From Gemmatimonadaceae bacterium (GTDB taxonomy: Bacteria > Gemmatimonadota > Gemmatimonadetes > Gemmatimonadales > Gemmatimonadaceae): a stretch of DNA of 40,117 bases. Position numbers and translations under genes: made by a program. Position 1 is the first letter of the stretch. Each line of letters begins with the position of its first letter. This document shows positions 17,466 through 25,299 of this stretch, one piece after another. The notes under the pieces were generated by a model. It did not search any database. It saw nothing but the letters and a program-made list of their open reading frames with translations, and was not told the origin of the DNA. Where the stretch lies: the NCBI GenBank assembly GCA_016741895.1, contig JACVCT010000006.1, positions 1 through 40,117 of the forward strand. Direction: 5' to 3'.

Positions 17466-17525
17466 GCGCTCAGCGCCTGCGCGCTCAGCACCTGCGCGAT
17501 CAGCGCCTGCGCGATCAGCGCTTGC
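17466..17525. repeat. Four 15-bp tandem repeats over the envC-like stop codon
   Basis: There are four copies of a GCG(C/A)TCAGC(G/A)C(C/T)TGC unit, at 17466-17480, 17481-17495, 17496-17510 and 17511-17525. The copy nearest the gene contains its TGA stop. Because the period is five codons, each further copy repeats that stop in frame, giving four successive in-frame stops. Confidence 0.85.
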
Positions 17526-18765
17526 CGCGCAGCCAGTCCAGCGGATCCACCGCCCGCCCCTTGGGGCGGATTTCGAAGTGCAGGTGTGGTGGCAATTCCG
17601 GATCGGCGGCACCGACGGTGCCGATGACCTGGCCCTTGGTGACCTGCTGGCCACGGCGTACGCCGATCTGCGCCAGCGAGCCATACACGGAATAGTCACC
17701 GCCGCCGTGCTGCACGATGACCGTGGACCCATACGTGCCCACATTGTCGGCCAGCACCACCTCGCCCGCGGCAATGCTGCGCACGGCGGTGCCGGCCGGC
17801 GCGCCGATGCCCACGCCGTTCCAGCGCGTTGTGGTGTTGTTGGGATTCACCACGCGGCCGAACTGATACAGCAGCGTGCCGTCCACCGGCCAATCCAGCT
17901 TGCCAAGGTCGGAGGTGCGAATGGTGGACGGCGCGGCCGGTCTCGCGTTGGGCGCCATTTCGGCGCGGCGGCGCGCGGTCTCGAGTGTGGCAATGGCGTT
18001 GGCAATGCGCGACTCGTCGCGCGCCAGCTGCTGCAGCCGTTCGCGGGCCTGCGCGGCGGAACGCTGCACGGCCGTCAGGTTGCGTTGCCGCGTATTCTCC
18101 AGCGCCGCCAGACGCCGGGCTTCGCGCTCCTTCTCCTGCCGGTTGCGACTCACGTCGTCCTGCAGCCGCACCAGCAGCAGACGCTGCGAAATGATCTGGT
18201 CACGCAGACCCTCCACACGACGCACCAGGTTGCGGTCGTTGACGGCGAGTTCGTGCAGATACTTGTAGCGGGCCACGAGGCCGGCAAATGACTGGGCGGA
18301 CAGCATGGCCTCCACGTCGTAGAGACTGCCGCGCTTGTAGATCTCCACCATGCGTCGCTGCAGCGCACCGCGGCGATTGACGAGCTCGCCCTCTGCACGC
18401 TGCAGACCACTGCTGGCCTTGATCACTTCCTCGTTGATGGTCTCGAGCTGTTTGTCGAGCGCTTCCACCAGGCGCGCCGTGGTGCGGCGCTGCGCCTCGA
18501 GATTGGCCACTTCCTCGGCTAGGGTGCGCGCGCTGCGCTGCAGCTGGTTCATGCGGTTCTCGAGATCACTGCGCTCCTTGCGCAGCTTGTCGAGTTCGCT
18601 CTGCTGCTGGCGGAGGCGCTGCTCGGCGCTTTGGGTGCCAGCCTGACCCTGCGCGTCTGCGGCCAGCAGTGCGGTGCTCAGCAAAGTCACCACACCCACT
18701 GCGGCCCCGCGAATCACCCGCGCGAGGCGATGGGGTTGCGCGGGCCGCCGCCCCGAGCCGTTCAC
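17515..18765 (-). CDS. EnvC-like murein hydrolase activator (degenerate LytM)
   Basis: The 416-aa periplasmic protein has a signal peptide (about 1-41, ending AQG). A long coiled coil rich in Gln, Arg, Glu and Leu covers residues about 45-270, followed by a C-terminal LytM/M23 domain (about 295-416). Two of the three expected zinc ligands are missing: RWNGVGIGAP replaces FHxGxDxAAP, giving Trp315 and Gly319. The YxH motif is YGS, while HLHFEI (394-399) is kept. E. coli EnvC shows the same kind of loss (RWKGMVIGAP) and activates amidases instead of cutting peptidoglycan, so this is inferred to be an activator. The gene overlaps ftsX by 4 bp, matching the known FtsEX-EnvC partnership. Confidence 0.88.
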   Translation of the reverse strand: MNGSGRRPAQPHRLARVIRGAAVGVVTLLSTALLAADAQGQAGTQSAEQRLRQQQSELDKLRKERSDLENRMNQLQRSARTLAEEVANLEAQRRTTARLVEALDKQLETINEEVIKASSGLQRAEGELVNRRGALQRRMVEIYKRGSLYDVEAMLSAQSFAGLVARYKYLHELAVNDRNLVRRVEGLRDQIISQRLLLVRLQDDVSRNRQEKEREARRLAALENTRQRNLTAVQRSAAQARERLQQLARDESRIANAIATLETARRRAEMAPNARPAAPSTIRTSDLGKLDWPVDGTLLYQFGRVVNPNNTTTRWNGVGIGAPAGTAVRSIAAGEVVLADNVGTYGSTVIVQHGGGDYSVYGSLAQIGVRRGQQVTKGQVIGTVGAADPELPPHLHFEIRPKGRAVDPLDWLRGKR

Positions 18766-19622
18766 GAGTCGCGCCAGACCTGCCGCAGATGGCGGCCCAC
18801 ACTCAACCAGCTGCCCAGCAATCCCAGCACACCACCCGCGGCAATGCCGAGCAGCACCTGACTCGGTTCAAAGAACCGGGTCTCCAACAGCGAGCGCGTC
18901 ACCAGGGTGCTGGTACCCCAGGCCAGCGCCACCGCCAGCACACCGCCCACCAGTCCCTTGAGCGCCCCATCGAGCAGGTAGGGCAGGCGCACGAACATGT
19001 TGGTGGCGCCCACCAGGCGCATGATCTCGATTTCGCGCGTGCGCGCGAGAATGGACATGCGAATGGTGGAGCCGATGATGATGACCGACACCAGCGCAAA
19101 GACGGCGCCAAGCACGGAACCGGCGAGGCCCGCCAGATTGCGAATGCGATAGAGTTTCTCCACCCACTCGCGGCCGTAGCGCACTTCCTCAACCTGCGGA
19201 TAGGTCTGCAGTCGCCGGGCAACTTCCTTGACGGTTTCCGGGTCGCGCGAGCCATCCTTGAGCCGCAGTTCCACCGAGGCCGGCAGGAAGGAGCCCTCCA
19301 TCACATCACGAAACTCCTCGAGCTCGGCGCGCGCCCGCACGAGTGCGGAGTCCGGTGATACGTAGCCGGCATCTGCCACCTGCGGCATGTTGCCGATACC
19401 CTGCATGAGCTCCTCCACCTGCGCGTCGCGCGTGCCCTCCACGAGGAAGGCGCGAATCTCCACGCGGTCCTCGATGTCACGCAGCGCCTGCCGGATGTTG
19501 AGCGCCACCAGGCCAAAGAGGCTGAAGGCGTAGAGCGAGAAGGCAATGGTTGTCACCGCCAGAACGGCCAACAGCGGCGCGCGCCGGAAGGCGAGCAGCA
19601 CCTCACGCAGCGCGAGCCTCAC
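18762..19622 (-). CDS. ftsX: Cell-division ABC permease FtsX
   Basis: FtsX is the membrane half of FtsEX, which couples ATP hydrolysis by FtsE to activation of peptidoglycan hydrolases at the division site. The 286-aa protein has the FtsX layout: an N-terminal membrane helix (about 14-40), a periplasmic domain (about 45-165, the partner-binding loop), then three membrane helices (about 168-195, 215-240, 255-275). MSILARTREIEIMRLVGATNMFVRLPYL is the typical cytoplasmic FtsX signature. It overlaps ftsE upstream and the EnvC-like gene downstream by 4 bp each, so the three are translationally coupled. Confidence 0.95.
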   Translation of the reverse strand: MRLALREVLLAFRRAPLLAVLAVTTIAFSLYAFSLFGLVALNIRQALRDIEDRVEIRAFLVEGTRDAQVEELMQGIGNMPQVADAGYVSPDSALVRARAELEEFRDVMEGSFLPASVELRLKDGSRDPETVKEVARRLQTYPQVEEVRYGREWVEKLYRIRNLAGLAGSVLGAVFALVSVIIIGSTIRMSILARTREIEIMRLVGATNMFVRLPYLLDGALKGLVGGVLAVALAWGTSTLVTRSLLETRFFEPSQVLLGIAAGGVLGLLGSWLSVGRHLRQVWRDS

Positions 19623-20329
19623 TTGCGCCCCCGCATGTCGGCGCGGAGCCGCAGCACGTCGGTGCCGTCGAACACCAGCTCCCCCTTGTCGAGTTCGAGG
19701 AAGCGCTGCTGCGCCCGCTCGATCATGGCCACATCGTGCGTGGCCATGAGCACCGCCGTACCGCGCGCGTTGATTTCGCGCAGCAGCAGGTAGATGGCAT
19801 GGGTGGCACGGTCGTCGAGATTGCCGGTGGGTTCATCCGCCAGCAGCAGGAAGGGATCGTTGGCCAGCGCCCGCGCGATGGCCACACGCTGCTGCTCACC
19901 GCCCGAGAGTTCGTGCGGATAGGCCGTGGCCCGGGACGCCAGCCCAACCTGCAGCAGCAGACGCGATACCTTGGGCGCGATCTGCGACGACGGGGTGCCG
20001 GTGACCTCGAGGGCAAAGGCCACGTTCTGCTCGGCCGTGCGATCAGGCAGCAGCCGGAAGTCCTGAAAGACAATGCCAAGCCGCCGCCGGAGATGCGGAA
20101 TCTCGCGTGGCTTGATGGAGAAGCTCGAGTAGCCCGAGACGCGCACCTCACCTGTGGTGGGACGCTCGGCCATGGTGAGCAGGCGCAGCAGCGTGCTCTT
20201 GCCGGCGCCGGAATGGCCCACGAGAAACACGAACTCGCCCTTGGCGATTTCGAAGTTCACACCACGCAGGGCCATGCCGGAGCGCGGGTACTCCTTGCTC
20301 ACGTTCGTCACGCGCACGATGCCCGACAT
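19619..20329 (-). CDS. ftsE: Cell-division ATPase FtsE
   Basis: FtsE is the ATPase partner of FtsX. The 236-aa ABC ATPase has Walker [11 protein letters not shown]-loop VFQDFRLL (FQDF is typical of FtsE), signature [15 protein letters not shown], Walker [13 protein letters not shown] and switch His in MATHD. ATG 20329 is chosen: the 17 extra residues of the longer frame overlap the upstream stop and do not look like FtsE. The gene starts one base after the PLP-like gene stops, implying co-translation with that unusual neighbour. Confidence 0.95.
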
Positions 20330-20330
20330 G

Positions 20331-21275
20331 TCAGGCCACTCCGTCGCGCAGCACGTCGCCCAGGTCGCCGATGAGCACACTGGCCTCGTCGAGCCCCACG
20401 TGCAGTCGCACCGTGTCCGGTGCTTCCGCCAGACGGATGTCCGCGCCGTGCGGACGCGCCTGCGCGGCCAGATGCCGCGTGAGACGCTGCGCCAGGCGGT
20501 CGGCGGCGTCGGCCGAGGGACACTGCAGCTGCACCACCGGCCCCTGATGTCGCAGCGCCTCGGCGGCCAGGTGGTGATCGGGGTGCGACTCGAGGCCCGT
20601 GTAGTGCACCGTCAGCCCCGCGGGAGCGGCCATGGCCACGGCCCGCGCCACCGCGTGGGCCACGTGCGCCTGATGCGCCACGCGCAGCGATAGGGTGGCG
20701 AGATCATGCAGCAGGCGCTCGGCAATGGACGGATGTGGCACGGCACCCCAGACATGCATCTTGCTCCGCACCTCGTCGATCACGGCCTCGGTGCCGCACA
20801 CCACGCCCGCCTCGGTGTCCGGAACACTGAACAGCCGCACCCGCGCGTCATGCACCACGACATCGGCCCCCGCTGCCAGGGGCGTGGCCGCCGCCGGCGA
20901 CGCACCGCTTGCATCCACCACGATGGCCACGCCCAGCTCCTGGCCCAGCGTGCGCAGCGGCTTGAGGTCCACCACCCGCCCGTGCTCGATGACCGGCGAC
21001 TCCACGAACAGCACCCGTGTGCTGCGGCGCATGTCGCGGCGCCACGCGCGCACGTCGCTGGGATTGACGTAGGTCACATCCACGCCAAGCCCCGCCAGTT
21101 CCTGCTGAAAGAAGGTGCGGGTGGACGGACGCAGCCAGGCACTCGACAGCACGTGATCGCCCGGGCGCAGCAGCGCCAGCACGGTGCAGGCGATGGCGGC
21201 CCGGCCGCTCGCGAGCACGAGCGCCGCGTCGGCCCCTTCGAGGTCAGCCAGTCGGCGGTGCAGCAGGTCAATCAC
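20331..21275 (-). CDS. Cys/Met-metabolism PLP-fold protein lacking catalytic Lys
   Basis: The 314-aa protein resembles the cystathionine gamma-synthase family: LEGADAALVLASGRAAI, LLRPGDHVLSS, LFVESPVIEHGRVVDL and the pyridine-binding Asp in VVDASGAS (121). The PLP lysine is absent: the family SATK is DARV here (143-146), within VVVHDARVRLFS. The PLP-stacking Tyr region and the N-terminal YSR...NPT segment are also missing. A PLP reaction is therefore not expected; it may be a pseudo-enzyme or a binding protein. The open frame extends to 21527 but that part overlaps the upstream gene and is unlike the family. GTG 21275 is the best in-frame start after that gene ends (no clear ribosome site). 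It directly precedes ftsE (1-bp gap). Confidence 0.75.
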   Translation of the reverse strand: MIDLLHRRLADLEGADAALVLASGRAAIACTVLALLRPGDHVLSSAWLRPSTRTFFQQELAGLGVDVTYVNPSDVRAWRRDMRRSTRVLFVESPVIEHGRVVDLKPLRTLGQELGVAIVVDASGASPAAATPLAAGADVVVHDARVRLFSVPDTEAGVVCGTEAVIDEVRSKMHVWGAVPHPSIAERLLHDLATLSLRVAHQAHVAHAVARAVAMAAPAGLTVHYTGLESHPDHHLAAEALRHQGPVVQLQCPSADAADRLAQRLTRHLAAQARPHGADIRLAEAPDTVRLHVGLDEASVLIGDLGDVLRDGVA

Positions 21276-21303
21276 GGCAGCGTGAGCAAAAGGGCGGCGG
21301 CGC

Positions 21304-21654
21304 TCAGGCGCGCGGCCGGGTATCGGTGTCGAGACGGATGATGCGTACCACTTCTGACAGCGAAGCGCCCGCGACGTCACGCAGCACCACCCCGCCGCGC
21401 GGCAGGCTGTCGTCGATTTCCAGCACGGCCAGCTCCGATCGGCGCTGCGACACCACCCGCACCAGTTCGCCCGCGTTGACGAGGCGCACCAGCGCGTCAT
21501 CCGCGCGCATGCGCACCAGCGGGCCACGCTCGGCGTCGCCCTTGCGGGTGGCGATGAACCCCACCACCTGTACCGGCGGCGCGATGCCGGTGAACATGCT
21601 CAGCTTGCGGCCGGCGCCCGGTCCGCCCAGTCCATCACGATGGTCGTTGCTCAC
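21304..21654 (-). CDS. Small beta-rich protein, function unknown (116 aa)
   Basis: This is a soluble protein without signal or membrane segments. The C-terminal half (VRMRADDALVRLVNAGEL, VRVVSQRRSELAVLEID, LPRGGVVLRDV) has the strand pattern of double-psi barrel domains such as the C-terminal domain of molybdopterin oxidoreductases. This is a weak resemblance judged by eye, with no cofactor residues to support it. It lies 10 bp after the STAS/winged-helix gene and 28 bp before the PLP-like gene, so it belongs to the same transcript. Confidence 0.6.
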   Translation of the reverse strand: MSNDHRDGLGGPGAGRKLSMFTGIAPPVQVVGFIATRKGDAERGPLVRMRADDALVRLVNAGELVRVVSQRRSELAVLEIDDSLPRGGVVLRDVAGASLSEVVRIIRLDTDTRPRA

Positions 21655-21664
21655 GGCAGAGCCC

Positions 21665-22222
21665 TCATGCGTCGCTCCAGGTGCTGCCCGGAATGCTGTA
21701 GCCCAGCGGGCCGCGCATCACGAGGCGACGGCGGTCGAGCTGGTCGAGCTGCTGCTGGGCACTGACTTCGGTGCTGGCCAGAATGGTGGCCACTTCGCGG
21801 GCGCCAATGGGCCCATGGTCGCGTACCACTTCCCAGTGCCGGAGTTCCTCGTCCGTCACATGACCGAAGAGCTCGGCCGCGCCCTCGTGCCAGGACACCA
21901 GGGCCAGCGCATGCCGCTCGAGCACCGTCTCGATGGGGTCGATGTGTCCATCACGGATGCCGCGAAACGCGAGATATCCACGCGGGCCGTCGTCGGCGGT
22001 GTAGCGCAGCAGCAACTTGGCCACGATCTCGTCGGCGCAGGAGAAATCGAGCAGGTTGACCTGCGAGAAATCGATGGTGGTGAGCACCGGCCGTTCGATT
22101 TCCCGCACCTGCTGCTCGATGGCACTTCGCACCGCCGCACCGGTGGGACGCGTGACGAGGTTGCTGTACAGATCGCAAACCGTGCCACGCAGCACGGTGC
22201 CCACATCGATGTGGACCATCAT
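21665..22222 (-). CDS. STAS-like protein with C-terminal winged helix
   Basis: In this 185-aa protein, residues about 5-115 resemble a STAS/DUF4325-type domain, with IDFSQVNLLDFSCADEIVAKLL at the place where STAS proteins carry the regulatory Ser/Asp loop. The C-terminal 60 residues (DHGPIGAREVATILASTEVSAQQQLDQLDRRRLV) look like a winged-helix module. The neighbour immediately upstream is a STAS-HATPase protein, so the two may form a kinase/antagonist pair as in partner-switching systems; this is inference. ATG 22222 is followed at once by a second ATG. Separated from its neighbours by 44 and 10 bp. Confidence 0.7.
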   Translation of the reverse strand: MMVHIDVGTVLRGTVCDLYSNLVTRPTGAAVRSAIEQQVREIERPVLTTIDFSQVNLLDFSCADEIVAKLLLRYTADDGPRGYLAFRGIRDGHIDPIETVLERHALALVSWHEGAAELFGHVTDEELRHWEVVRDHGPIGAREVATILASTEVSAQQQLDQLDRRRLVMRGPLGYSIPGSTWSDA

Positions 22223-22266
22223 GGCGTTGCCGCTCCGCGCGTTGCCGCTTCTCGAGGCGCCATGAC

Positions 22267-23205
22267 TCAGCGCCCCGTGCGGCTGCGGGGTGTCGCCGTG
22301 CGCGAGCGCACCGGGGCATCGCCCAGACGCTCGGGGATGACAATCTGCATCTGCGCACCGGGGAAGTAGGGCAGTGACTCGGTCATGGGCACATCTTCGT
22401 CCCAGTCGGGCGTGATGGCCAGACGCGCAGTGCCGCTGCGCACGGTGAGCTTGCCCTCCCAGCGACCCACAAAGCGGCGAATGCCCGCCAGACCCTGACC
22501 GCGTCCCTTGTCACCGTGTCGGAAGCGGCTGACGGCGCGCAGCACGGCGTCTTCGAGCGCCATGGCATCGTCCCATCGATCACTGTGCCGGTGACTGGGC
22601 GAACTTTCGAGCGACTTGCGAAAGCCCACACCGGCGTCGCACACGGCAATGACCACCACGCGACGGCCGAGGCGCTTGGTGTAGCGATAGGTCTGTACGG
22701 CCACCCAGCCGCCCAGCCCCGCGTGCTCGACGATGTTCTGGCAGGACTCGCTGAGGGTCATGCCAAAGGCGCCGGTGACGGCCGTGTCGAGATTGAGCTG
22801 GCCGTGCAGAATGTCGGCGGCCTTCTGCTGAATGCGGCCCACCACCCCGTGCACATCATCGGTGCGCGTGATGGGCGTGAGCTCGAGCAGCACATCGCTT
22901 TCGTGAGCCTCACGTTCCCGCGGCACGTGCCCGTGCAGGTCGTACAACTCGGCCGCATGGCGAAAGAAGCCCGTGCGTGACCAGTACGAGAGCGTGTCGG
23001 GATTTTCGGGAACGGCGAAGTCGGCACGCTCGTGGCGCGATTGCGCCACGCAGAGCAGGGCCGCAAGCCCATACGGCGACGACCAACGGGCATGCCGTGC
23101 GTCGATCAGCAGCTTCTCGCCATCCGGCACAGGCGCGAGTTGCTCGAACACCTGCTCGAACGTTTGCTCGTCGAGCGACGGCGGCACGGCGATGACGGTC
23201 GTCAC
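22267..23205 (-). CDS. STAS-like plus HATPase (anti-sigma-type) protein
   Basis: In this 312-aa soluble protein, residues 1-115 are STAS-like (LLIDARHARWSSPYGLAALLCVA...YWSRTGFF). Residues 125-295 are a GHKL ATPase with N-box ESCQNIVEHA (153-162), G1 CDAGVGF (189-195) and G2 GRGQGLAGI (234-242). There is no dimerisation/phospho-His domain or sensor, as in RsbW/SpoIIAB-type serine kinases, so the target is probably a protein rather than a response regulator. The basic tail (SRTATPRSRTGR) is unstructured. GTG 23205 overlaps the PfkB stop by 4 bp. The neighbouring STAS protein is the obvious candidate partner. Confidence 0.8.
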   Translation of the reverse strand: MTTVIAVPPSLDEQTFEQVFEQLAPVPDGEKLLIDARHARWSSPYGLAALLCVAQSRHERADFAVPENPDTLSYWSRTGFFRHAAELYDLHGHVPREREAHESDVLLELTPITRTDDVHGVVGRIQQKAADILHGQLNLDTAVTGAFGMTLSESCQNIVEHAGLGGWVAVQTYRYTKRLGRRVVVIAVCDAGVGFRKSLESSPSHRHSDRWDDAMALEDAVLRAVSRFRHGDKGRGQGLAGIRRFVGRWEGKLTVRSGTARLAITPDWDEDVPMTESLPYFPGAQMQIVIPERLGDAPVRSRTATPRSRTGR

Positions 23206-24257
23206 GTGATGCTGAGCTCTCCGCGAAGGTGCTGGGCGAGGCCGGAGGCCCCGCGATGTTCGACGTTGCGTGACGCGGCCCGATTGGCGGCGGCGATCGC
23301 ATCCGTCAACATATCACCGGCGAGCAGCCGAGAGAAATGGGTGGCGCCCCACACATCACCGCAGCCGGTGGGATCACCGGGCCCATCGACGCGCGCCGGC
23401 ACCGCCGGAACCAGCGCCGTGCGCACCGCGCCCAGGGCACCGGCACCGCCACGCGGTGATGTGGACAGCGCGGAGTTGTGACCTCGTCGCTCGGGGATGT
23501 CACGGAGTTTCTCTATCCCCGGCGCAGCAAAGTAGGCCGCGCCGCGCTTGCCCAGCTGCACAAAGAGCACCGACACGCCGGCAGCCATGGCGGTGGCGGC
23601 CAGCGCCATGGCGTCAGGGGCCATGAGCTGCAACTCGTCTTCGTTCACCTGCAGCACGTCGAAACAGGCGCACCACGCCGCCACATCGGGCAGGGGGCGC
23701 GGCGTGCGCAGCCCATCGGCCTGCACGGCCATCACGAGCATGTGCAGGTCGCAGTAGATCGGACCCTGGAAGTGTGCGCGAATGAGTTGCGTGGTCTCGA
23801 GATCGAGTTCCCAGCCGCTCAGGAAGTTGATGTACAGCGCGTCGAGCCGCGCCGCATCGAGCACCGGCTTGAGGCCCAGCCAGGTCCAACCCGGCACACC
23901 GCCGCTCAGGTGTTCACTGCGGCGCTCGTCATCGAGATAGCGCAACTCCACGCGATTGTTGCGATAGGGCACGCCAATGAGCTCGGCGTCGGGCGCCATG
24001 CGCCGGAGACTGCGACAGAACAGCCGCGCGCGGTCCACGAGATCGTCACCCACCTTGGCGAGTGGCACCAGTTCCCAGTCATCAGGCAGCGCGGCGTCGA
24101 GCGCTGACAGGGAGTAGGTGATGCCACCCCATTCCTCGATGGGCACGCTGCGGCCGTCGCGGCCGTGCAGCACATCCCACACAAACGAGCCAATGACGCC
24201 AAGGCGCTTGCGGCGCGGTGTTGACGTGTGGTCGTTGGATTCGGTCGTGGAGTTCAA
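23202..24257 (-). CDS. PfkB-family carbohydrate kinase
   Basis: This is a ribokinase/PfkB-fold sugar or nucleoside kinase of about 351 aa. Seen are the first strand LGVIGSFVWDV, the GG-containing loop EEWGGITYSLSALDAAL, and the C-terminal anion-hole and catalytic motif DPTGCGDVWGA, where the catalytic Asp is kept but the usual GAGD is GCGD. The substrate cannot be assigned. TTG 24257 is chosen: it gives the normal N-terminus, lies 25 bp after the ROK gene and has a GAAGAG stretch upstream; the longer GTG frame (24341) runs into the ROK coding region. Its stop overlaps the STAS-HATPase start. Confidence 0.85.
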   Translation of the reverse strand: MNSTTESNDHTSTPRRKRLGVIGSFVWDVLHGRDGRSVPIEEWGGITYSLSALDAALPDDWELVPLAKVGDDLVDRARLFCRSLRRMAPDAELIGVPYRNNRVELRYLDDERRSEHLSGGVPGWTWLGLKPVLDAARLDALYINFLSGWELDLETTQLIRAHFQGPIYCDLHMLVMAVQADGLRTPRPLPDVAAWCACFDVLQVNEDELQLMAPDAMALAATAMAAGVSVLFVQLGKRGAAYFAAPGIEKLRDIPERRGHNSALSTSPRGGAGALGAVRTALVPAVPARVDGPGDPTGCGDVWGATHFSRLLAGDMLTDAIAAANRAASRNVEHRGASGLAQHLRGELSIT

Positions 24258-24282
24258 GACTACGCGGTACTCTTCATTCTCT

Positions 24283-25299
24283 TCAGGCCGGCGGACGGCC
24301 CGTGGTCTGCGCGATGTAGCTGGCCACCGCACCCACCACACCGGCGGTGCCCGGCAGCGTGCCCGGCACGATGCGACAGGTGTCGGTCACGCTCTTGAAG
24401 GCGCGGCGACGCACTTCGGTGCGCAGCGGCGTGAAGAGATCATCGCCGGCCTGGGTCACGCCACCCGCGATGACCACCACGTCCGGATTGAAGATGTTGA
24501 GCAGGTTGGCGATGCCGGCGCCCAGGAACTTCGCGGTGTCTCGCACGATCTCGAGGGCCACCGCGTCGCCGTCGGCAGCGGCCTGATACACCAGCGCCGC
24601 CGTGACCTGCGACAGATCGCCGTTCACGAGCGCGAGCAGCGTGCTGGTTTCGTCGTGCTCCAGTGCTTCGCGCGCACGGCCGGCAATGGCACTGCCCGAG
24701 GCGTAGGCCTCGAGGCAGCCGTAGTTGCCGCATCCGCAGCGCCGGCCGGTGGGGTCGATGGTGATGTGCCCGATTTCGCCGGCCGCATCGCTGGAGCCGT
24801 GATAGAGTTGCCGGTCGATGATGATGCCACCGCCCACGCCGGTGCCGATGGTGACGCCAATGACGTTGGTGCCACCACGCGCTGCGCCCAGCCACCACTC
24901 GCCGTAGGTGGCGCAGTTGGCGTCGTTGTCGATGCGCACCGGCAGCCCGGTGAGGGCCGTCATGCGCTCCGTCAGCGCGTAGTTGGACCAGCGCAGGTTG
25001 GGTGCAGCCAGCACGAGCCCCTGCTTGCGATCCACGGTGCCGGGAGCGCCAAGGCCCACACCAAGCACCGCCTCACGCGGCACGCCCGTTTCCTCCACCA
25101 CCGTGTCGATGGTGCGTGCGACCATCTGCGCCATGCGCTGCACAACCGACTCGGCACCTTCAGCGGCCAACGTGGGCGCCGTCTGCTGCCCCAGCAGTCG
25201 CGTTCCGTCCAGCGACATGGCCGCGACGACAATGTTGGTGCCGCCGAGGTCGACGCCAATGATGAATGAGGACGCGGGGGAATTGGTGGAGGTCGCCAT
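24283..25299 (-). CDS. ROK-family sugar kinase (glucokinase-like)
   Basis: The 338-aa ROK protein has the ATP-binding strand IIGVDLGGTNIVVAA (13-27), sugar site DNDANCATYGEWWLGA, IGTGVGGGIIIDRQLYHG, and the zinc motif GHITIDPTGRRCGCGNYGCLE with its three Cys and one His. There is no N-terminal DNA-binding domain, so it is a kinase rather than a ROK repressor. The likely role is phosphorylation of glucose or a related hexose. It is the first gene of the minus-strand run leading to ftsEX. The ATG lies exactly 6 nt after a TATGTT box. Confidence 0.9.
   Translation of the reverse strand: MATSTNSPASSFIIGVDLGGTNIVVAAMSLDGTRLLGQQTAPTLAAEGAESVVQRMAQMVARTIDTVVEETGVPREAVLGVGLGAPGTVDRKQGLVLAAPNLRWSNYALTERMTALTGLPVRIDNDANCATYGEWWLGAARGGTNVIGVTIGTGVGGGIIIDRQLYHGSSDAAGEIGHITIDPTGRRCGCGNYGCLEAYASGSAIAGRAREALEHDETSTLLALVNGDLSQVTAALVYQAAADGDAVALEIVRDTAKFLGAGIANLLNIFNPDVVVIAGGVTQAGDDLFTPLRTEVRRRAFKSVTDTCRIVPGTLPGTAGVVGAVASYIAQTTGRPPA

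Follow-up and report, generated by a model that had tools for sequence, protein, structure and literature searches.

Pseudoenzymes are well studied in kinases. In active enzymes of the Cys/Met metabolism family of PLP-dependent enzymes (PF01053), a tyrosine and an arginine of the N-terminal arm serve the phosphate of the neighboring subunit. Residues Tyr114, Ser340, and Arg375 of methionine gamma-lyase (MGL), as well as a Gly/Met/Ser/Thr/Lys set, are discussed in the accessible part of one paper (PMC9865163). Proteins of the wider fold without the PLP lysine are known. LCB1/SPTLC1, a subunit of serine palmitoyltransferase, is devoid of this residue and pairs with an active subunit (PMC3794620, accessible part). 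In the sugar 3-dehydratases ColD and E1 a fixed histidine replaces the catalytic lysine and does the chemistry (PMC8987622, accessible part).

The window analyzed here is the whole stretch of 40,117 nucleotides at positions 1 to 40,117 of contig JACVCT010000006.1, from a Gemmatimonadaceae bacterium of the order of Gemmatimonas, a bacterium of soil and freshwater. Upstream of ftsE it encodes a PF01053 protein without the catalytic lysine. This gene encodes a derived, lineage-specific pseudoenzyme; its location before ftsE dates back to the base of the order, and intact enzymes hold the same place. Literature searches, in a collection without most subscription journals, turned up no publication about this gene or about a Lys-less PF01053 protein.

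Gene, Reading Frame, and Neighborhood

Table 1. Features of the window and residues of the PLP-fold protein, with their positions in the stretch.
Feature	Position	Strand	Basis or remark
tRNA-Asn (gtt)	209-282	minus	
Block from ROK kinase to EnvC	17515-25299	minus	syntenic order-wide; sugar kinases, HATPase, and STAS-like precede ftsEX
EnvC-like M23 peptidase with coiled coil	17515-18765	minus	profile matches
ftsX	18762-19622	minus	profile matches
ftsE	19619-20329	minus	TIGR02673, 279.7 bits, cut-off 264.85
Junction TGA-C-ATG: stop of PLP-fold gene, one base, start of ftsE	20327-20333	minus	TGA 20331-20333; C 20330; ATG 20329-20327
Lys-less PF01053 protein, 314 aa	20331-21275	minus	ORF, Pfam, and model; GTG start at 21275
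Codon 290, Arg (MGL Arg375, substrate carboxylate)	20406-20408	minus	kept in 22/24 readable genus copies
Codons 143-146, D-A-R-V replacing S-A-T-K; Val146 at the former catalytic lysine	20838-20849	minus	alignment
Codon 121, Asp (MGL Asp186)	20913-20915	minus	alignment; kept in 28/28 Lys-less copies
Codon 49, Arg replacing the cofactor-stacking Tyr (MGL Tyr114)	21129-21131	minus	alignment
Codons 22-28, A-S-G-R-A-A-I loop (SGMxAI in family)	21192-21212	minus	alignment
116-aa ORF upstream (orf116)	21304-21654	minus	conserved in family, without confident family assignment; sub-threshold Pfam match, Molydop_binding, 20.9 bits vs 26.8
STAS-like protein	21665-22222	minus	named by inspection; no Pfam match
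HATPase-domain protein	22267-23205	minus	

The first-pass annotation had placed the gene 1 bp before ftsE, and base 20330 alone does intervene; both genes lie on the minus strand, which had been left unstated (Table 1). It had also reported no sign of a frameshift, in agreement with the closest relative, G001 (94% identical), which has the identical reading frame. The 124 nucleotide differences between the two are distributed 20/5/99 on codon positions 1/2/3 and thus concentrate at the third position; frame and substitution pattern together rule out a frameshift or a pseudogene. In G001 the frame is open for only nine codons upstream of the aligned start, supporting the short N-terminus of the window protein.

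The order of nine genes, namely ROK kinase, PfkB kinase, HATPase, STAS-like, orf116, PLP-fold gene, ftsE, ftsX, and envC, is kept in the genus of the window and in the family; elsewhere in the order it recurs without a detectable orf116. The Lys-less gene adjoins ftsE wherever ftsE is readable. The gap between the PLP-fold gene and ftsE is near zero in most genomes and the junction is tight in most members of the genus, with 8 to 23 bases before the aligned ftsE start in three genomes (G021, G022, and G025). About 1.1-1.3 kb separate an intact PLP gene from ftsE at six loci (L065, L066, L069, L080, L081, and L087, in G049, G056, G031, G042, G043, and G038, respectively). A fusion of the PLP enzyme with FtsE in G048 was considered and discarded, a TAA stop being present.

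Fold and Active-Site Residues

The protein matches PF01053 with 159.3 bits (E 1.3e-46, cut-off 27) over residues 3-261, corresponding to only profile positions 55-314 of 381, since the N-terminal arm is missing. Its best NCBIfam match, O-succinylhomoserine sulfhydrylase, reaches 166.5 against a cut-off of 522, and the protein scores under each NCBIfam equivalog cut-off shown. An AlphaFold2 monomer model built from a 35-sequence alignment (pLDDT 92.9, pTM 0.91) has methionine gamma-lyases as its top Foldseek matches and aligns to one of them, 5dx5_B, with a Z of 39.6 and an rmsd of 1.7 A over 307 residues (VIA-align). Across family structures Z is 37-40, so the model has the fold type I structure of MGL/CGS. 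The structural comparison suggested in the first-pass annotation therefore finds the fold kept, and in the monomer model this fold tolerates the loss of the residues described below.

Residues were aligned to methionine gamma-lyase of P. putida (1gc0), in which HSATKYL corresponds to HDARVRL here. For Asn161, Asp186, Lys211, and the N-terminal Tyr/Arg we assume the MGL numbering, their positions being set by the alignment. The motifs read in the first-pass annotation were recovered in sequence and alignment: the SG-x-AAI loop (S23 G24 R25 A26 A27 I28), the GDHVL strand (residues 39-43), and the pyridine-binding Asp121 are retained. So were the losses that it listed, since residues 142-149 are HDARVRLF versus HSATKYLN in the family (SATK being DARV), Arg49 occupies the position of the stacking tyrosine, and the Y-x-R-Y-G-N arm of Lys-bearing orthologs is missing. 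The phosphate-binding Ser/Thr pair is also missing, with Asp143 and Arg145 at those positions. In sum the protein has lost the stacking tyrosine and Asn161 as well as the phosphate cup, the N-terminal arm, and a C-terminal active-site loop. A relocated catalytic lysine was considered and rejected, because K105 and K172 are the only lysines of the protein and K172 is also found in most Lys-bearing orthologs inspected.

Distribution in the Order and Residues Lost, Kept, and Newly Fixed

Among 100 genomes of the order, the positional gene could be read from the loci in 92, with lysine in 64 and without it in 28; it is absent in six, the neighbors being joined (G012, G027, G054, G066, G088, and G094, all of which retain ftsE-ftsX-envC), and unreadable in two (G003, with no ftsX match, and G039, whose contig has 342 bases ahead of the ftsE match). 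The 30 genomes of the window's genus comprise 26 Lys-less copies (those of G023 and G011 read from truncated genes), one with lysine (G007), two absences, and one unreadable locus. Other genera of the family (n = 30) contribute two Lys-less copies (G040 and G047), 26 with lysine, one absence, and one unreadable locus, and other families of the order (n = 40) 37 with lysine and three absences. A match at a contig end with SATK (L137, in a MAG named Gemmatimonas phototrophica) was judged a different paralog and excluded from these counts. A PF01053 homolog at 9001-9978 of L173, in a Tissierellia MAG, has an internal stop at residue 22 of the match.

Intact positional orthologs share about 36-47% identity with the window protein. 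The first-pass annotation had regarded orthologs with lysine at this site as evidence against its reading; such orthologs do occur, outside the genus and in G007 (64 of the 92 readable copies), and they show that the loss is derived but do not make the window protein an enzyme. It had also raised the conservation of Val146 and its neighbors. Position 146 itself is not conserved, being V, A, L, T, M, E, H, F, R, or G without pattern, in motifs such as DARV, DARE, DATV, DARL, SASA, SASM, TASL, DAAF, DARH, SAST, ASTT, and others; the neighboring His142, on the other hand, is present in all 28 Lys-less copies.

A comparison of pocket residues in 46 Lys-bearing and 26 Lys-less genus copies revealed that Tyr114 (45/45 vs 0/26), Asn161 (46/46 vs 1/26), Ser208 (46/46 vs 5/26), Thr210 (46/46 vs 7/26), and Lys211 (46/46 vs 0/26) distinguish the two groups. 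The same is true of the N-terminal arm motif (42/46 Lys-bearing vs 0/28 Lys-less; the four exceptions are G007, at a contig end, G055, G091, and G078) and of the C-terminal loop motif SxPRxTSH (37/46 vs 0/28). Lysine, Tyr114, Asn161, Ser208/Thr210, the N-terminal arm, and the C-terminal loop have thus been lost together in 26 members of the genus, which upholds the assignment as a pseudoenzyme made in the first-pass annotation. Kept in both groups are Gly89 (44/45 Lys-bearing, 26/26 Lys-less genus copies), the Asp186 equivalent (46/46 and 26/26, or 28/28 with G040 and G047), and the Arg375 equivalent (46/46 and 22/24, the other two having His). In a further 18 Lys-bearing genomes Tyr, Asn, Asp, Ser, Thr, and Lys were found in 18/18, with Arg readable in 16.

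Lys-less copies have in addition acquired residues of their own, Ala26 (for Gly), Thr31 (Ala), Arg49 (Tyr), Phe55 (Leu), Ala178 (Gln), and His181 (Asp), as seen when the 26 genus copies were thinned to 18 for comparison. Ala26, Arg49, Ala178, and His181 are nearly fixed, the main clade comprising 22 species. Arg49 is paired with His181 in 19 copies and Arg25 with Asp143 in 10/10, counts that are shared by descent and thus do not represent independent events. Asp181 is retained in the early-branching Lys-less lineages G002, G008, G010, G019, G040, and G047.

History of the Loss

In a tree built from eight neighbor genes G007, which has the lysine, groups with G010 and adjoins G002, both Lys-less; with this placement and an irreversible loss, four losses would have occurred in the genus, in addition to those of G047 and G040. 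The G007 genome is 79% complete with 5% contamination, and the contig starts within the PLP gene. The tree of the PLP gene itself matches the neighbor tree in its main lines. The neighbor genes reject a group of all the Lys-less members of the genus that excludes G007 (p 1.5e-50, with G007 represented by FtsE, FtsX, and EnvC only), whereas the own-gene tree minus the catalytic columns does not reject a single loss in the genus (p 0.27). As the two data sets disagree on a single loss, the lysine was lost 1 to 4 times in the genus, and G040 and G047 represent two independent losses outside it. The lysine of G007 may possibly have been regained by recombination.

The 110-base gap before ftsE in G027 encodes two C-terminal pieces of the PLP-fold protein that end at the shared stop, which indicates that the deletion within the Lys-less clade is recent.

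Evolutionary Rate and Selection

Pairwise dN/dS (Nei-Gojobori) was 0.01-0.34 in 14 Lys-less pairs (ftsE 0.01-0.12 in the same pairs) and 0.05-0.21 in four Lys-bearing pairs, ranges that overlap, so that dN/dS alone cannot separate the two groups. The rate relative to the eight neighbor genes was 1.74-4.29 in 12 Lys-less pairs and 0.39-0.88 in 13 Lys-bearing pairs, some genomes being counted in two pairs, and that of the mixed pairs was 2.87 (G010-G007), 2.30 (G034-G040), and 0.96 (G053-G047). In 7/7 close Lys-less pairs the amino-acid differences fell under all 300 neutral simulations matched to the observed number of nucleotide changes, with a narrow margin in G005-G016 (41 differences vs a simulated minimum of 42). 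A stop-free outcome was also obtained in 20 to 101 of 300 neutral simulations and is therefore weak evidence. The constraint on the Lys-less copies is relaxed but real, evidencing purifying selection; part of this signal could also come from selection for clean folding of a protein that is translated but useless.

Paralogs and the Probable Loss of Catalysis

The genome of the window contains five intact relatives, namely OSHS-like, CGS/CGL-type, and MGL-like proteins, a cystathionine gamma-lyase that passes its cut-off (NF005758, 464 bits vs 440), and an O-acetylhomoserine sulfhydrylase that also passes (538 vs 495). The cystathionine gamma-lyase is present in 28/30 genomes of the genus vs 2/70 others, its gain being one event on one branch, and the OSHS-like paralog in 26/30 vs 7/70. 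The CGS/CGL-type paralog was detected in 95/100 genomes and the O-acetylhomoserine sulfhydrylase in 34/100. In the genus, the most likely course is that cystathionine gamma-lyase replaced the enzyme, which then lost catalysis. Such a replacement accounts for the genus at most, as G040 and G047 lost the lysine while lacking the gamma-lyase, and G007 carries the lysine and the gamma-lyase together.

Proposed Function and Alternative Explanations

Based on sequence comparison, it can be proposed that a former PLP enzyme lost catalysis in the genus after takeover by paralogs and is now probably maintained for binding or scaffolding without catalysis. By position, the gene descends from an intact enzyme of the trans-sulfuration type, encoded directly upstream of ftsE-ftsX-envC throughout the order. 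Loss of the lysine occurred 1 to 4 times in the Gemmatimonas lineage and also in two lineages elsewhere, and the cofactor-holding residues went with it; the fold is kept, the coding sequence is under purifying selection, and several lineages have deleted the whole gene. Catalysis may have become dispensable in the genus when cystathionine gamma-lyase, with other paralogs, took over. The present protein would perform no PLP chemistry and may act through its old cleft, where Asp121 and Arg290 are kept and Arg49, Ala178, and His181 are new. Against this proposal stands the fact that the gene is dispensable, being missing from G012 and G027 of the same genus. A binding or sensing role is possible; a more specific version, rather improbable at present, would be that the PLP pocket was rebuilt as a non-covalent ligand site for sensing amino acids or anions. 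Asp121 and Arg290 would hold a sulfur amino acid by its ammonium and carboxylate groups, Arg49/His181 (joined in the clade of the window by Arg25-Asp143) would occupy the space of the cofactor, and the sensor would perhaps feed the neighboring HATPase/STAS-like regulator or else the FtsEX operon. The dead state has arisen repeatedly in the order.

The gene might instead be a slowly decaying and functionless relic, embedded in an operon where its translation feeds ftsE, with frame and foldability maintained against polarity and misfolding until in-frame deletions eventually remove it. The relaxed rate, the shrinking N- and C-terminal segments, the six clean absences and one remnant, the tight ftsE junction in most of the genus, and the want of a fixed replacement at position 146 are consistent with such a relic. 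Nevertheless, the result of the neutral simulations in all seven pairs speaks against it, the invariance of Asp121 and His142 in 28/28 copies and the fixation of Arg49, His181, Ala178, and Ala26 in the 22-species main clade exceed what foldability needs, and intervals of 8 to 23 bases before the aligned ftsE start are tolerated; the relic is therefore a serious but rather unlikely alternative. A role in division, with the pseudoenzyme as a binding partner of FtsE that modulates FtsEX-EnvC, is in line with the structural or sensing function beside the division ATPase suggested in the first-pass annotation and draws on the adjacency to ftsE-ftsX-envC at mostly near-zero gaps. This suggestion does not hold up well, since 64 genomes have the same neighborhood with an intact enzyme, interrupted in six of them by the 1.1-1.3 kb mentioned above, and ftsEX persists without the gene in six others; synteny and presence/absence over the 100 genomes yielded no tie between the PLP-fold protein and FtsE, and a division protein is thus very improbable. 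Under the proposed explanation, nearness to ftsE would reflect inherited operon order and not be evidence of a division function. Retention of the Asp186 and Arg375 equivalents, and the existence of Lys-less enzymes in the wider fold (PMC8987622, accessible part), would suit a protein that is still an enzyme, with another residue or chemistry in place of the lysine, as His in ColD and E1, or with use of PMP. This is the least probable of the readings, given that the replacing residue is patternless, that the phosphate cup and N-terminal arm have gone too, and that just two lysines are left in the window protein.

Irrespective of the function, one conserved chromosomal place shows a bacterial PLP enzyme in three states, active, Lys-less yet selected, and deleted, and the repeated independent losses constitute a natural experiment on the passage from a metabolic enzyme to a non-catalytic protein. 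Some cultured strains appear to carry Lys-less copies, which makes the function directly testable. Annotation as a trans-sulfuration enzyme would mislead for this genus.

Comparison with Known Systems

The window protein has in common with the MGL/CGS family (PF01053) its sequence family and fold, the SG loop, and the Asp186, Arg375, and E157 positions, and differs from it in the loss of Lys211, Tyr114, Asn161, Ser208/Thr210, and the N-terminal arm as well as in a shortened C-terminal loop. The intact orthologs in other genera of the order occupy the same place among the same neighbors, with a complete active site and N-terminal arm, and evolve more slowly than their neighbors. Like LCB1/SPTLC1, it is a fold type I descendant that has been retained as a protein minus the PLP lysine (PMC3794620, accessible part); however, LCB1 keeps residues thought to be catalytic and has an active partner, whereas the window protein has lost both the lysine side and the N-terminal arm side of the shared active site. 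An LCB1-like subunit would form a heteromer with an active paralog, and the genome of the window has five intact ones. With ColD and E1 it shares the replacement of the catalytic lysine in a PLP-fold protein (PMC8987622, accessible part), but histidine stands at the lysine position in just 1/28 Lys-less copies, the site being unconstrained in this lineage.
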